Origin: Actinomycetes bacterium
GTDB lineage: Bacteria; Actinomycetota; Acidimicrobiia; Acidimicrobiales; Acidimicrobiaceae
Reading direction: 5' to 3'
Length of the DNA stretch: 59,742 nt
NCBI GenBank assembly: GCA_021803345.1
Contig: JAJZLS010000041.1
Span: 1-59,742 of the forward strand
Shown: positions 6,351-32,730 of the stretch, piece after piece
Numbering within the stretch: the first letter of the stretch is position 1
How the letters are laid out: each line of letters starts with the position of its first letter
Notes under the pieces: generated by a model
What the model was told of the DNA's origin: nothing
The model's database searches: none
Seen by the model: the letters and a program-made list of their open reading frames with translations, nothing else
Program-made: the position numbers and the translations under genes

Positions 6351-7392
6351 TATCTACTACTTCTCCCAAAGCAAAGGTCTGGATTGAATGTCCCTCCAAG
6401 TGGTCTCTGACTTTTCTTTCCGACTTTTCATTTACAGCAAGCACCATGCCAACTCCCATGTTGAAGACTCGATACATTTCCTCATCCGAGATCGACCCAG
6501 CCTGCTTTATATCAGTGTATATTCCTGGAATCTCTACCAATGAGAGATCGATTTCGGCTCCCATTTTTTCAGGTAGTGATCTCGGCAGGTTCCCGACTAG
6601 GCCTCCACCTGTAATATGCGCACAACTCGAGATAGATTCCCGGTCCGCAATTGAACTGATGGCAGCACTGTAAATCACAGACGGCTCAAGCAGAATCTCA
6701 AATAGGGACTTCCCGGAATCATTCCAGTTGGGCGAAGTCCCCAACTCCTTGATCCCATTCTCAGCCATGTCGCCAAATAAGGCGGCCCTTGCAAGAGAAA
6801 AACCATTTGATCTTAGATTTGGGGATGCCAATCCAATCAGTCGATCACCCAGCTTCACCCTATGCGATCCCCAGATCCGCCCGCGGTCAGCAAGGCCAAC
6901 TGCAAAGCCGGCCAGGTCAAAGTCGCCTTCCTTCATAACCCCGGGATGCTCGGCCATCTCACCACCTATCAGAGAGGTGCCCGCCACTTGACAACCAGCA
7001 GCAATGCCACTTACAAGTTGTTCGATATGGGATGGATCCAGTTTGCCTATCGAAATGTAATCCAGCATAAATAGAGGCCTGGCTCCAGTGCATACAAGGT
7101 CGTCGACACACATCGCTACCAGATCTATACCTATGCTGTCATATTTCCCAGCCCATTTTGCCACCATCGCCTTGGTACCGACACCATCTGTAGATGAAAC
7201 CAGGACTGGATCTGCGATACCTGATAAATTGGGAGCAAACATTCCCGCAAATCCACCGATGTCAGATATCACTTCTCGAGAAAATGTCGCCTGCACTTTT
7301 TCACGTATCTTCGATACAGCGGCTTCTCCGGCCTCTATGTCCACACCCGAAGCTGCATAAGTCAGAGATTTATGACCATCTAGATTATTCAA
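6325..7392 (-). CDS. purM: Phosphoribosylformylglycinamidine cyclo-ligase (AIR synthetase)
   Basis: Converts FGAM to AIR with ATP, step 5 of purine synthesis. The 355-residue protein shows YAASGVDIEAGEAAV at the start, VSSTDGVGTKAMVA, DLVCTGARPLFMLDY, SLIGGEMAEHPG and HITGGGLVGNLPR, all standard PurM landmarks of the PurM/PurL/ThiL/HypE ATPase fold. Its ATG overlaps the purF stop by four bases, implying translational coupling. Confidence 0.96.
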   Translation of the reverse strand: MNNLDGHKSLTYAASGVDIEAGEAAVSKIREKVQATFSREVISDIGGFAGMFAPNLSGIADPVLVSSTDGVGTKAMVAKWAGKYDSIGIDLVAMCVDDLVCTGARPLFMLDYISIGKLDPSHIEQLVSGIAAGCQVAGTSLIGGEMAEHPGVMKEGDFDLAGFAVGLADRGRIWGSHRVKLGDRLIGLASPNLRSNGFSLARAALFGDMAENGIKELGTSPNWNDSGKSLFEILLEPSVIYSAAISSIADRESISSCAHITGGGLVGNLPRSLPEKMGAEIDLSLVEIPGIYTDIKQAGSISDEEMYRVFNMGVGMVLAVNEKSERKVRDHLEGHSIQTFALGEVVDNGGEIRIA

Positions 7393-10005: not shown

Positions 10006-12211
10006 GAAATGAAGGCCTGTAAGCAGCCCTGAGCTTTTCCACTTCAACCTCAATTAGGCCCGGCACACAAATCTTAGTTCCGGTTACACGACCAATTTTT
10101 GCTGCCGGCAGACCCCGGCAGGAAATGTATTCAACCACTTCCTCCGCTGAATTGGTAGCTACAAGCACCCTTGAGCCGGACTCCGAGAACAGCTCGAAAT
10201 GGTCAACTATAGCACCGGCGTCGATGTCAGCTCCAAGAGTGCCAGCCAAAGCCATTTCCGACAAAGCCAGTCCAAGACCGCCGTCAGATACATCATGCAT
10301 GGCAGATATGGCAAATTCGTCTGCCCGCTGGCTCAACTCAATGATCAAATTCACCAGTTCCATGTGTAGCTTCAAATCAAGCTGTGGCAGTTCGCCATCT
10401 ATATCCCCTTTGAGTTGGTATGCCCATCTCGAGCCAGCCAGGTTTCGCTCAGTCTTGCCTACCAGCACCAGATCGGCGTTCTCTGAAAAGCCAATACTTC
10501 TGGGCTGCTGGCGTAGCTGGTCAATTACTCCAAGAGTGGTCACCACCGGGGTTGGATCTATATCCACCCCGTTCACCTCATTGTACAGAGAAACGTTTCC
10601 TCCAACTACCGGTATCTCAAGCTGAAGACAGGCCTCCGCAATGCCATCGATAGCCTCGGACAGCTGCCACATCACTTCTGGATGCTCAGGATTACCAAAG
10701 TTAAGACAATCCACCAAACAGGCAGGCTTTGCGCCAGTCATCGCCACATTCAATGCACTTTCAGCGACCACCATGGCTGCTCCAGCTCGGGGATTAACCG
10801 CACACCACCTGGAGTTTCCATCCGCAGATACAGCTATAGCCTTACCACTGAATTCTACTCCTGGACCGGCGGCCCGAAGAAGAGTCGCATCCATCCCAGG
10901 CTTTACTACCGTATTTAAAAATAGCTGGTGATCATACTGGGTGTAGACCCAGGCCGGATCGAAAAGCATCTGCATGAGATCGTTCTCAAGATCCGAGCCA
11001 TCACAGCCAGCCCCAGCGACTCTAGACTTGCGCGACTCAAGGTCCGCCGGAGCCTCTCTCTTCCGGTCGTATTTTGGAGCTTCATCAGCCAATGATCCCG
11101 CAGGTACTTCGGCCAAAAGCCGGCCACCCTGGCGGTCAAATACACACAACATGCCCACTGAAATACCGGAGTCAGTCTTAACAGGCTCAGTCACCTTCCC
11201 TATTACGGAAGCTGACACTTCCCACTTTTTAGCCACCTTGAGTACCTGGTCCAGTGAGTCAGGGGTGACGATCGCCAGCATCCGCTCTTGACTTTCTGAA
11301 GTCATCACTTCGAATGGCTCCATATTCTGCTCACGGACCGGGATCTCAGATATGAATACATCCATACCCATTCCGGCATTGGCAGCCGTTTCAGATGTGG
11401 CACAGGTGATTCCCGCTCCACCGAGATCTTGAATCCCAACGACCAGCTTGAGGTCAAGCAACTCCAAACATGCCTCTATTAACCGCTTTTCCTCGTAGGG
11501 GTCACCCACCTGAACACTGGGACGCTTTGTGGAACTGTTTTCATCGAAGCCCGCCGAAGCCAACACCGAGACACCACCGATACCGTCTCTTCCGGTAGAG
11601 GCACCAAGCAGTACCGCCAAATTGGATGCTCCCGATGCCTTTGCAAGCACCAGACGGTCCCGCGGAAGGATCCCAATTGCCGCCACATTCACTAAAGGAT
11701 TCGAATTGAAGGTCTTATCAAATACCGTCTCCCCACCTACAGTAGGGACTCCGACGGCATTGCCGTAGCCGGATATCCCGCTCACCACTCCGGTGAATAT
11801 CCATCGATTCTTAGCATCGTCAATTGGACCCATGCGCAAAGAGTCGAGAAGAGCTATAGGCCGGGCACCCATAGTAAAGATATCCCGCAGTATTCCCCCC
11901 ACTCCAGTTGCGGCACCCTGGTATGGTTCAATCGCTGAGGGGTGGTTGTGGCTCTCCATTCGAATTGCCACAGCGATCCCATCTCCGATATCAATTACAC
12001 CGGCGTTCTCACCGGGACCAACCAAAACATTCTCACCCTTGGAAGGCAACCTTCCCAAATGAATTCTCGAAGATTTATACGAACAGTGTTCGCTCCACAT
12101 CACTGAGTACATTGCCAATTCCAAATGATTTGGCGATCGTCCCAGAACCTCTGTAATCATTTCAAGTTCAGAGTCGGTTAGACCCAGCGTACGGTGTATC
12201 GGCATTTCCAT
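9998..12211 (-). CDS. purL: Phosphoribosylformylglycinamidine synthase subunit PurL
   Basis: Large subunit of the three-part FGAM synthase, which acts with PurQ (glutaminase) and PurS. At 737 residues it is the short PurL form, which needs PurS and PurQ; both are encoded upstream. Landmarks are [12 protein letters not shown] near 35-46, [27 protein letters not shown], a [10 protein letters not shown] segment and [12 protein letters not shown]. No good ribosome binding site precedes either of the two close ATGs (12211, 12205), so a leaderless mRNA is possible. A plus-strand gene at 12431 separates it from purQ, so it probably has its own promoter. Confidence 0.96.
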
Positions 12212-30712: not shown

Positions 30713-31912
30713 CTACGAAACGCAGCCGCCGCTTGAAACACCTTTAGTAGAGTGCTCATTGGCTAAGATTTTTTGATCAACCGCCGGGCTTGCAAGGGCA
30801 AATCCGATATTTGGATTGGTGGTGGATCGTGAAAATACCACCCCTATGACTTGTCCCTTCATATTGAGCAATGGTCCACCGGAGTTGCCGGGACGAACAA
30901 TAGCTTCAATCTCGTATACCAGTCTGGTAGTCAGCCCTTGGCCGTAAATATCTCTTCCAGTTGCGTTGAAGGTAGCCATGACCCCGGCCGGTCCATAAGT
31001 CAGCGGACCGCCACCTGGATACCCAAGCACTACAGCTTCTGTGTCCCTGTATACCGTCTGAGTGGATACAGTCAATGGAGGCTCAGTCAAACCCTGAGTT
31101 TTCAGCAGTGCAAGGTCAAGTCTGGGATTGAAATAGATTACCGTTGCGTGGTGCTGACCACGGCTGTCGATAATGTATGGATTAGCTATCCCAGCCACTA
31201 CGTGGGCATTTGTCACCACAATATTGGGTGCAACAACAAATCCAGAACCTTCCTGAATTTGGCCACAGCCAACCCCTTCAATCTTTAGCGTTGAGACTTC
31301 GGCGGTCTTAACCACCTGATTCACTTGAGCGGTGTCTGGTAGCCCTACTGGCCCGGCCAGCTGAGGTGGCAATGACGCAAACACAGAGGGAAAACCTTGT
31401 GAGTTAACAAATGCTTGTACTCTGGAAAATACTGAAGGGGCCGCCGGCAAAACGTTATCCAAAGCCCGTACGATCCTCGAACTTGCCACTTGAGAGGATA
31501 ACCAGGTAAATGGGGAATTGACAGCTATACCGGCCAAAATCCACACTCCCAGCAGCGTAGCCACCACTGCAATTGCGGCACCCAGTGCAGAGTCCACCGC
31601 TGCCAACTTGACTTTCCTAATGGTGCGCCATGCCTTTACGCCTATTCGCCGACCAGCTCCGGCAAGAAGTGTTGCCGTACCGAACAAAATGACCAGCGAG
31701 ACAATGGTACGCCACAGTGGAGTATGGATTGGCCCAACTATAACCGGCGCGACAATTGCACCAAGAAATAGCCCAATCCAGAATCCTGCATAGGAGCCTA
31801 GCTGGACCGATGCTCCCAATTGAATCCCACGAATTGCAGAGATTGCAACGGCGATCAAAAGAATAACATCTAGAATGTCAAAACCTATTGCGGCGGTTAA
31901 ATGAAATGGCAC
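30713..31912 (-). CDS. marP: MarP-like membrane serine protease with CvpA domain
   Basis: Four N-terminal membrane segments (about 10-130) form a colicin V production (CvpA) domain. A periplasmic trypsin-like protease follows, with the triad His237 (TNAHVV), Asp266 (RLDLALL) and Ser344 (PGNSGGPL). Cys216 and Cys397 sit where M. tuberculosis MarP forms its Cys214-Cys395 disulfide, so the match reaches fine detail. In M. tuberculosis MarP is needed to hold cytoplasmic pH in acid and to resist oxidative stress. That role is inferred here, and it would suit an acid-tolerant actinobacterium. It is followed by the YgjP-like peptidase gene. Confidence 0.9.
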   Translation of the reverse strand: MPFHLTAAIGFDILDVILLIAVAISAIRGIQLGASVQLGSYAGFWIGLFLGAIVAPVIVGPIHTPLWRTIVSLVILFGTATLLAGAGRRIGVKAWRTIRKVKLAAVDSALGAAIAVVATLLGVWILAGIAVNSPFTWLSSQVASSRIVRALDNVLPAAPSVFSRVQAFVNSQGFPSVFASLPPQLAGPVGLPDTAQVNQVVKTAEVSTLKIEGVGCGQIQEGSGFVVAPNIVVTNAHVVAGIANPYIIDSRGQHHATVIYFNPRLDLALLKTQGLTEPPLTVSTQTVYRDTEAVVLGYPGGGPLTYGPAGVMATFNATGRDIYGQGLTTRLVYEIEAIVRPGNSGGPLLNMKGQVIGVVFSRSTTNPNIGFALASPAVDQKILANEHSTKGVSSGGCVS

Positions 31913-32120: not shown

Positions 32121-32585
32121 CTACTTAGCAGTGAGTCTCTTTAAATCCTCTAAGACTTGCTGAGCATGACTTTGAGGATCAGATACCTCATATGAAACTT
32201 GTATTATTCCATCAGGATCTATCAGGTAGCTAATACGCTTTGGCAAACTTTCATACTGATCACCCGGTTCGCGCATCACTTGATAAAGCGGTCCAACTTT
32301 CTTTTCTGAATCACTTAGCAGCTGATACTTGAACCCCTGCTCCTGGGCAAATTTTCTATTCTCCTCAACCGAATCGAAAGATGCACCCAGAATTACCGTC
32401 CCTAGCTCCTGTAAATCTTGGGATCTGTCACGCAGACCCTGACCTTCGATGGTTCAGCCAGGAGTCCCAGCTTTGGGATACCACCAAAGCAGAACCCACT
32501 TGCCTTTAAATGACGATAGCGACACCAAATTGCCAGATTGATCCGGCAAGGTGAAGTCTGGAGCCGCTGTAGTTGACTCTAGCAT
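32121..32585 (-). CDS. Probable selenocysteine-containing peroxiredoxin (PrxQ/Bcp type), in-frame TGA at codon 44
   Basis: Thiol/selenol peroxidase reducing hydroperoxides. The frame begins MLESTTAAPDFTLPDQSG and runs 155 codons to TAG. A single in-frame TGA at 32454-32456 (codon 44) falls exactly where the family has its peroxidatic Cys: WYPKAGTPG-U-TIEGQGLRD, compared with the canonical YPKxxTPGC-T-E-C-FRD. Homology continues unbroken after it (GASFDSVEENRKFAQ, LLSDSEKKVG, KRISYLIDPDG). The PrxQ resolving Cys five residues on is Gln. A GAAAGG lies eight bases before the ATG. A hairpin with a GGUCU loop follows the TGA. Readthrough by selenocysteine is therefore the best reading; a nonsense pseudogene is the alternative. 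The window shows no sel genes. Confidence 0.82.
32423..32450 (-). promoter_or_regulatory. SECIS-like hairpin for selenocysteine insertion
   Basis: Starting four bases after the TGA, ATC pairs with GAT and GTCA with TGAC around a loop GGGTCTGCG. The loop contains GGTCT 16-20 bases after the TGA. The E. coli fdhF SECIS presents the same GGUCU, followed by GC, in its loop 19 bases after its UGA. The match to the SelB-recognised loop was made by eye; folding energy was not computed. Confidence 0.65.
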
Positions 32586-32730
32586 GTTCGATACCTTTCA
32601 CCTAGTTTTACTATGCAAGCTTATCTGATTATTTGCCTTACTTCAGAAATACTCCTATCTAATACCAGATACCCGCATCAGACGAAATGCCCCGGTTGGC
32701 GACTATCTTCTATTCCGGAGGTTTTATAAA

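Follow-up and report, generated by a model that had tools for sequence, protein, structure and literature searches.

A cysteine-free Bcp/PrxQ-type peroxiredoxin with a predicted selenocysteine active site in an uncultured member of the Acidimicrobiaceae

Peroxiredoxins of the Bcp/PrxQ type usually, albeit not universally, carry a resolving cysteine five residues downstream of the peroxidatic one (position +5). In the 1-Cys peroxiredoxins, such as the mycobacterial AhpE and the Prx6 types, there is a single catalytic residue, and an outside thiol resolves the oxidised form. Peroxiredoxins in which selenocysteine (Sec) occupies the catalytic site have also been described. The Sargasso Sea yielded 43 sequences in 2005, assigned to COG1225 and carrying a TxxU site (PMC1088965); later counts were 12 Sec peroxiredoxins in a survey of 2006 (PMC1794560), 253 in the GOS set in 2008 (PMC2398784) and, by 2016, 91 proteins in 78 organisms (PMC5029168). 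The Sec peroxiredoxin family is also listed in a 2026 review (PMC13188914). PrxU of Eubacterium acidaminophilum is another bacterial Sec peroxiredoxin, going by the titles cited in PMC13188914 and PMC8533274.

Here we analyze a gene from a 59,742-nucleotide stretch of DNA (hereinafter, the window; contig JAJZLS010000041.1, assembly GCA_021803345.1) that belongs to an uncultured actinobacterium of the family Acidimicrobiaceae. A preliminary description of this locus, made from the sequence alone, proposed that the gene encodes a PrxQ-type selenoprotein and stated that Sec-containing peroxiredoxins exist in some bacteria; the latter statement is accurate, with COG1225 forms known since 2005 (PMC1088965). 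The window gene can be likened, by description, to the Sargasso/GOS family common in marine microbes, with which it shares the COG1225 class, the TxxU site and a candidate bacterial SECIS directly downstream (PMC1088965 and PMC2398784). The Sec-PrxQ enzyme type is already known, and the window gene is an added member of it, with a one-Sec feature that is worth testing. Neither a missing resolving Cys in Sec-PrxQ proteins nor such a gene in Acidimicrobiia was mentioned in the literature text that we could search, with figures and subscription papers lying outside this scope, so that the absence is unproven; papers naming Acidimicrobi* together with selenocysteine or selenoprotein dealt with other subjects, judging by their titles and the beginnings of their abstracts.

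The gene lies on the minus strand, with an ATG at 32585 and a TAG at 32121, and reading through codon 44, a TGA that is the only in-frame stop before the TAG, yields a product of 154 residues (Table 1). When Cys stands in for Sec, the Pfam domain AhpC-TSA matches this product in one stretch (residues 7-130, 3.3e-33) that spans the TGA, and the site context, WWYPKAGTPG-U-TIEGQGLRD, fits the peroxiredoxin motif Pxxx(T/S)xxC as given in PMC5302317. In a sequence comparison with PDB entries, the first of the closest matches is named AhpC/TSA and is followed by six that carry the name Bcp; by sequence, the window protein thus falls in the same fold family as the Cys-type PrxQ/Bcp proteins (thioredoxin-dependent thiol peroxidases). 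It differs from these in having the predicted Sec at the peroxidatic site and Gln, not Cys, at residue 49, five positions after it; indeed, the entire protein has no Cys. In its single catalytic chalcogen residue the protein is like the AhpE and Prx6 1-Cys types, although it belongs to another subfamily and would use selenium instead of sulfur. Nor is it of the modeled PrxU type, given that it scores 62.5 bits against the PrxU model NF040737 (233 positions), for which the cut-off is 270.

The preliminary description, which left the strand unstated, was otherwise correct in what it read from the sequence, namely the frame broken solely by the TGA at 32454-32456, the homology on both sides of this codon, its peroxidatic position, the Gln in place of the resolving Cys that makes the enzyme one-Cys-like, and the splitting of the gene by standard annotation: the only open reading frames listed in the peroxiredoxin frame under translation table 11 are pieces of 43 and 52 aa. 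Furthermore, each of the 12 NCBIfam families listed for the window protein falls below its cut-off, including NF006960 (1.4e-33, 116 of the 140 bits). Because no NCBIfam family fits at the cut-off and standard translation splits the gene, this antioxidant enzyme of uncultured actinobacteria is easily missed.

Table 1. Features of the peroxiredoxin locus, in window coordinates
Feature	Positions	Strand	Details
Putative Shine-Dalgarno-like GAAAGG	32594..32599	minus	8 nt before ATG; read from sequence
Predicted Sec-peroxiredoxin gene (Bcp/PrxQ type)	32121..32585	minus	154 codons + TAG; zero cysteine codons in frame; translation with TGA = U, Pfam AhpC-TSA
Active-site motif P37-KAG-T41-PG-U44, i.e., Pxxx(T/S)xxC with predicted Sec for Cys	32454..32477	minus	P37, T41 and position 44 invariant in 10-row alignment
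In-frame TGA, predicted Sec codon 44, peroxidatic position	32454..32456	minus	Same column TGA in 9/60 related genomes besides the window's own
Codon 49 CAG (Gln), usual place of the resolving Cys	32439..32441	minus	Translation, alignment, column counts
SECIS-like hairpin	32421..32439	minus	5' arm 32439-32433 GGGTCTG, loop 32432-32428 CGTGA, 3' arm 32427-32421 CAGATCC; from fold
Gene downstream of the peroxiredoxin	30713-31912	minus	Colicin V-type membrane part + trypsin-like protease domain; neighbour kept in 7/7 genus loci

The TGA-containing gene was found in 10 of the 61 related genomes searched, that is, in the window's own genome (G000), in 6 of 9 genus mates, in none of the 27 members of other genera of the family and in 3 of the 24 other members of the order. 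Among 110 homologous loci aligned at the peroxidatic column, 68 have TGA and 42 have TGC or TGT; the in-frame TGA lies in a column where homologs have Cys. A scan of titled genome records kept the best 80 of 569 relatives, and of these 80 loci, 58 have TGA at the site and 22 have TGC or TGT; judging by the record prefixes, many independent projects contributed to them; three of the 58 TGA loci (L091, L096 and L110) have site sequences equal to those of G009, G053 and G040, respectively, and probably come from the same genomes. The mean pN/pS ratio, calculated for 21 pairs from 7 genus members with synonymous sites near saturation (pS 0.71), is 0.20 upstream of the TGA and 0.20 downstream of it, so both flanks are under purifying selection. 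Because TGA occupies the same column in the window genome and in 9 of 60 relatives, and both flanks are under selection, chance is excluded, and the TGA-interrupted Bcp/PrxQ frame is confirmed as real.

Starting 14 nt past the TGA of the window gene is a hairpin of 7 pairs, one of them G-U, with a CGTGA loop in which G is second. This arrangement agrees with the described bacterial SECIS, which lies immediately 3' of the UGA and has a small apical loop with a G (PMC1088965), and makes the hairpin a candidate SelB-binding site. After removal of 6 duplicates and 1 locus near a contig end, the 110 loci left 61 TGA and 42 Cys genes for counting, with a hairpin defined as a stem of 6 or more pairs, the 5' arm ending exactly at +21 and a loop of 5 to 7 bases. 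By this definition, whose position was read off the same, mutually related sequences as those counted, the hairpin is present in 55 of the 61 distinct TGA genes, including that of the window, compared with none of the 42 Cys homologs. Reshuffling of synonymous codons leads one to expect it in 7.9 +/- 2.5 TGA genes, with a maximum of 17 in 500 runs. Covariation is apparent as well: in the group with a 7-base loop (n=38), both partners of a pair change with pairing kept (TA to CG, GC to AT), and in the group with a 5-base loop (n=13), CG is replaced by TA or GC, again with pairing kept. Less favorable are the folds of single sequences, a weak test: only 11 of 61 TGA sequences, and also 5 of 42 Cys sequences, beat 95% of their own synonymous shuffles, and the window sequence is not among them (p 0.145). 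No hairpin was found at the shared position in 6 of the 61 TGA genes (L030, L093, L121, L137, L157 and L158). Being only 19 bases long, the hairpin offers a simple marker for finding further genes of this type.

Taken with the selenocysteine machinery described below, these data make it very probable that the product is a Bcp/PrxQ-type peroxiredoxin (COG1225) with one Sec and no cysteine, in which UGA 44 is decoded as selenocysteine through a downstream bacterial SECIS, with the Sec insertion, the peroxidase activity and the reductant being predictions. The hairpin just downstream of UGA 44 would recruit SelB with Sec-tRNA-Sec, and the ribosome would then read the UGA as selenocysteine. Going by the chemistry of the family, the Sec selenolate would attack the peroxide and become a selenenic acid, which would be reduced by an outside thiol, conceivably that of thioredoxin, mycoredoxin or a low-molecular-weight thiol; such a thiol would be needed because the chain has no resolving Cys.

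The selenoprotein reading of the preliminary description is supported by the conserved TGA and the SECIS-like hairpin and, in the same genome, by a tRNA-Sec and a SelD with a UGA of its own. Specifically, the window genome encodes tRNA-Sec with the anticodon TCA (G000:C52:19515-19606, 69.2 bits compared with a gathering score of 47) and SelD (G000:C56:7180-8103, locus L017, 377 bits compared with 125), in which an in-frame UGA lies within GAG-U-ACK, at what we take to be the catalytic Cys position of SelD. This selD is likely a second Sec gene of the genome; a putative hairpin is predicted to start 25 nt downstream of its UGA. Two minus-strand regions of the window, 6526-7107 and 11636-12031, also match the SelD model weakly and below its cut-off; these are AIR-synthase-family domains. 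Thus, of the sel genes named in the preliminary description, selC and selD are present, whereas searches of the G000 assembly recovered neither selA nor selB. They were likewise not found in G002 and G003, both carriers of the TGA gene. SelA matches are strong in 7 of the 9 genus mates, with SelB beside SelA; among the 10 genomes with the TGA gene, 7 have strong SelA matches and SelB above the cut-off. tRNA-Sec is present in all 10 of these genomes compared with 14 of the 51 genomes that lack the TGA gene (Fisher p = 2e-5, not corrected for relatedness).

The absence of selA and selB might reflect a true loss in the lineage, the TGA gene and tRNA-Sec being relics on their way out, and both marker genes that flank selA-selB are indeed missing from G000, G002 and G003 as well. 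In the genus mate G009, selA-selB and tRNA-Sec are on one contig, about 14 kb apart, and contig C52 of G000 is collinear with G009 between tRNA-Sec and NAD synthase, after which it breaks off inside the syntenic run. For the NUBPL/Mrp-type ATPase near selA, the best relatives are only 41%, 42% and 41% identical in G000, G002 and G003, respectively, and for the ArsA-type gene beyond selB, the best matches are 38%, 44% and 42%, compared with 88% in G001. The same missing stretch contains two adjacent glutamine synthetase genes (the identities of all these genes rest on Pfam). Glutamine synthetase is 94-100% identical in G001, G004 and G009, whereas the protein search came up empty for G000 and G003 and gave just one match of E=2.7e-4 in G002. 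A DNA search of G000 with an 11.6-kb contig of a genus mate, run without a positive control, also found nothing. Because the glutamate synthase encoded in the window uses glutamine, the cells are unlikely to have lost every glutamine synthetase, and because the selA-selB stretch is missing together with glutamine synthetase, it appears to be missing from the three assemblies and not from the cells. Moreover, the TGA, the hairpin and both halves of the protein are intact in all three genomes. A genuine loss is therefore very unlikely; an assembly gap is the likeliest reason for the absence of selA and selB from G000, and we infer that both genes reside in a portion of the genome that was not assembled. 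The stretch absent from all three of G000, G002 and G003 carries, in genus mates, selA-selB along with the genes for glutamine synthetase, the NUBPL/Mrp-type ATPase and the ArsA-type protein.

Still less likely is it that a near-cognate tRNA (for Trp, Cys or Arg) reads through the UGA and yields a selenium-free protein. The lack of selA and selB from the assembly would fit such decoding, but tRNA-Sec accompanies the TGA gene in every genome where the latter was found, SelA and SelB are evident in most of them, the SECIS-like hairpin is conserved, and the site is the position of the catalytic chalcogen.

Even lower is the probability that the TGA arose through faulty sequencing or assembly, or that it is a nonsense mutation marking a gene in decay. 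Although the assembly that contains the window is fragmented (90 contigs, completeness 94.9%), 9 other related genomes and most of the best-matching titled records share the TGA, and the hairpin tracks it; because the TGA is conserved across relatives and pN/pS is equal before and after it, error and pseudogene are rejected for the family. General reassignment of TGA to a sense codon (e.g., Trp) in the host, which an internal TGA in an otherwise open frame might suggest, is just as improbable and is rejected because TGA also terminates 8 of the 40 long non-overlapping frames of the window and, in 4 of the 9 related genes listed (L023, L027, L028 and L029), the gene that carries the internal TGA, and because the internal TGA falls at the place of the homologs' Cys in both the peroxiredoxin and SelD.

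The genomic neighborhood is stable within the genus: all 7 genus loci have the trypsin-like/Colicin V protein and glutamate synthase as neighbors, and 6 of the 7 also have a CopD-like protein. In the GOS data, Prx is reported beside SelW (PMC2398784). Within 2.5 kb of 63 Sec loci, inspection by eye revealed no gene for a redox partner in the 14 clusters that recur most often, and the largest cluster covers 8 loci; this search used open reading frames of at least 70 aa in the standard code, which small or Sec-containing partners escape. When the window was scanned for genes interrupted by a single TGA, six frames emerged, including the peroxiredoxin, and none of the other five resembles a known selenoprotein, as judged by eye.

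The absence of the resolving Cys is not peculiar to the window protein. Residue +5 is other than Cys in 59 of the 61 TGA genes (Q in 23, K in 9, N in 9, R in 7, G in 6, L in 2, and E, T and S in one each), compared with Cys in 39 of the 42 Cys genes, and 38 of the 65 distinct Sec proteins have no Cys at all (with start codons chosen by position). For the phylogeny, Sec was coded as Cys; the resulting tree of 107 distinct proteins unites 61 Sec proteins, including that of the window, in a single clade (100/99 support), within which the proteins of the window and its six genus mates cluster together (100/98). The same 61 proteins are those with the WWYP motif, which is found only together with Sec (61 of 61 proteins that have it, none of the 42 Cys proteins), in a sample that was fetched with Sec queries and, for the titled records, limited to the best 80 of 569 relatives, so that WWYPKA-type Cys members beyond these 80 would escape it. 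By record title, the Sec carriers include Acidimicrobiia, Alpha- and Gammaproteobacteria, Gemmatimonadetes and SAR324, with single bins of Myxococcota, Planctomycetota and Bacteroidota; the Planctomycetota bin shares its site sequence with an alphaproteobacterial bin and could be a product of misbinning. It is conceivable, though we put the chances somewhat below even, that Sec peroxiredoxins of the WWYPKA type represent an ancient subfamily, distributed over Actinomycetota, Pseudomonadota, Gemmatimonadota and other groups, that lost its resolving Cys along with the fixation of Sec; selenium would then be the basis of a distinct one-Sec mechanism with no reversion to Cys, and not a replacement for sulfur. 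The link between Sec and the absent resolving Cys presents a testable case of selenium altering the catalytic cycle of a peroxiredoxin.

Several Sec proteins deviate from this pattern. Two from Fidelibacterota are placed weakly beside the main Sec clade, and two from Acidobacteriota lie apart from it, among the Cys proteins. The latter (L157 and L158), which are PrxQ proteins with TGA at the site, are without the shared hairpin, and L158 keeps the +5 Cys; possibly, they represent a separate gain of Sec. Finally, L030 (from G040) is a Sec form within the main clade that retains the +5 Cys and has a possible hairpin in another register; it is a possible intermediate or, alternatively, a case in which the resolving Cys was regained.
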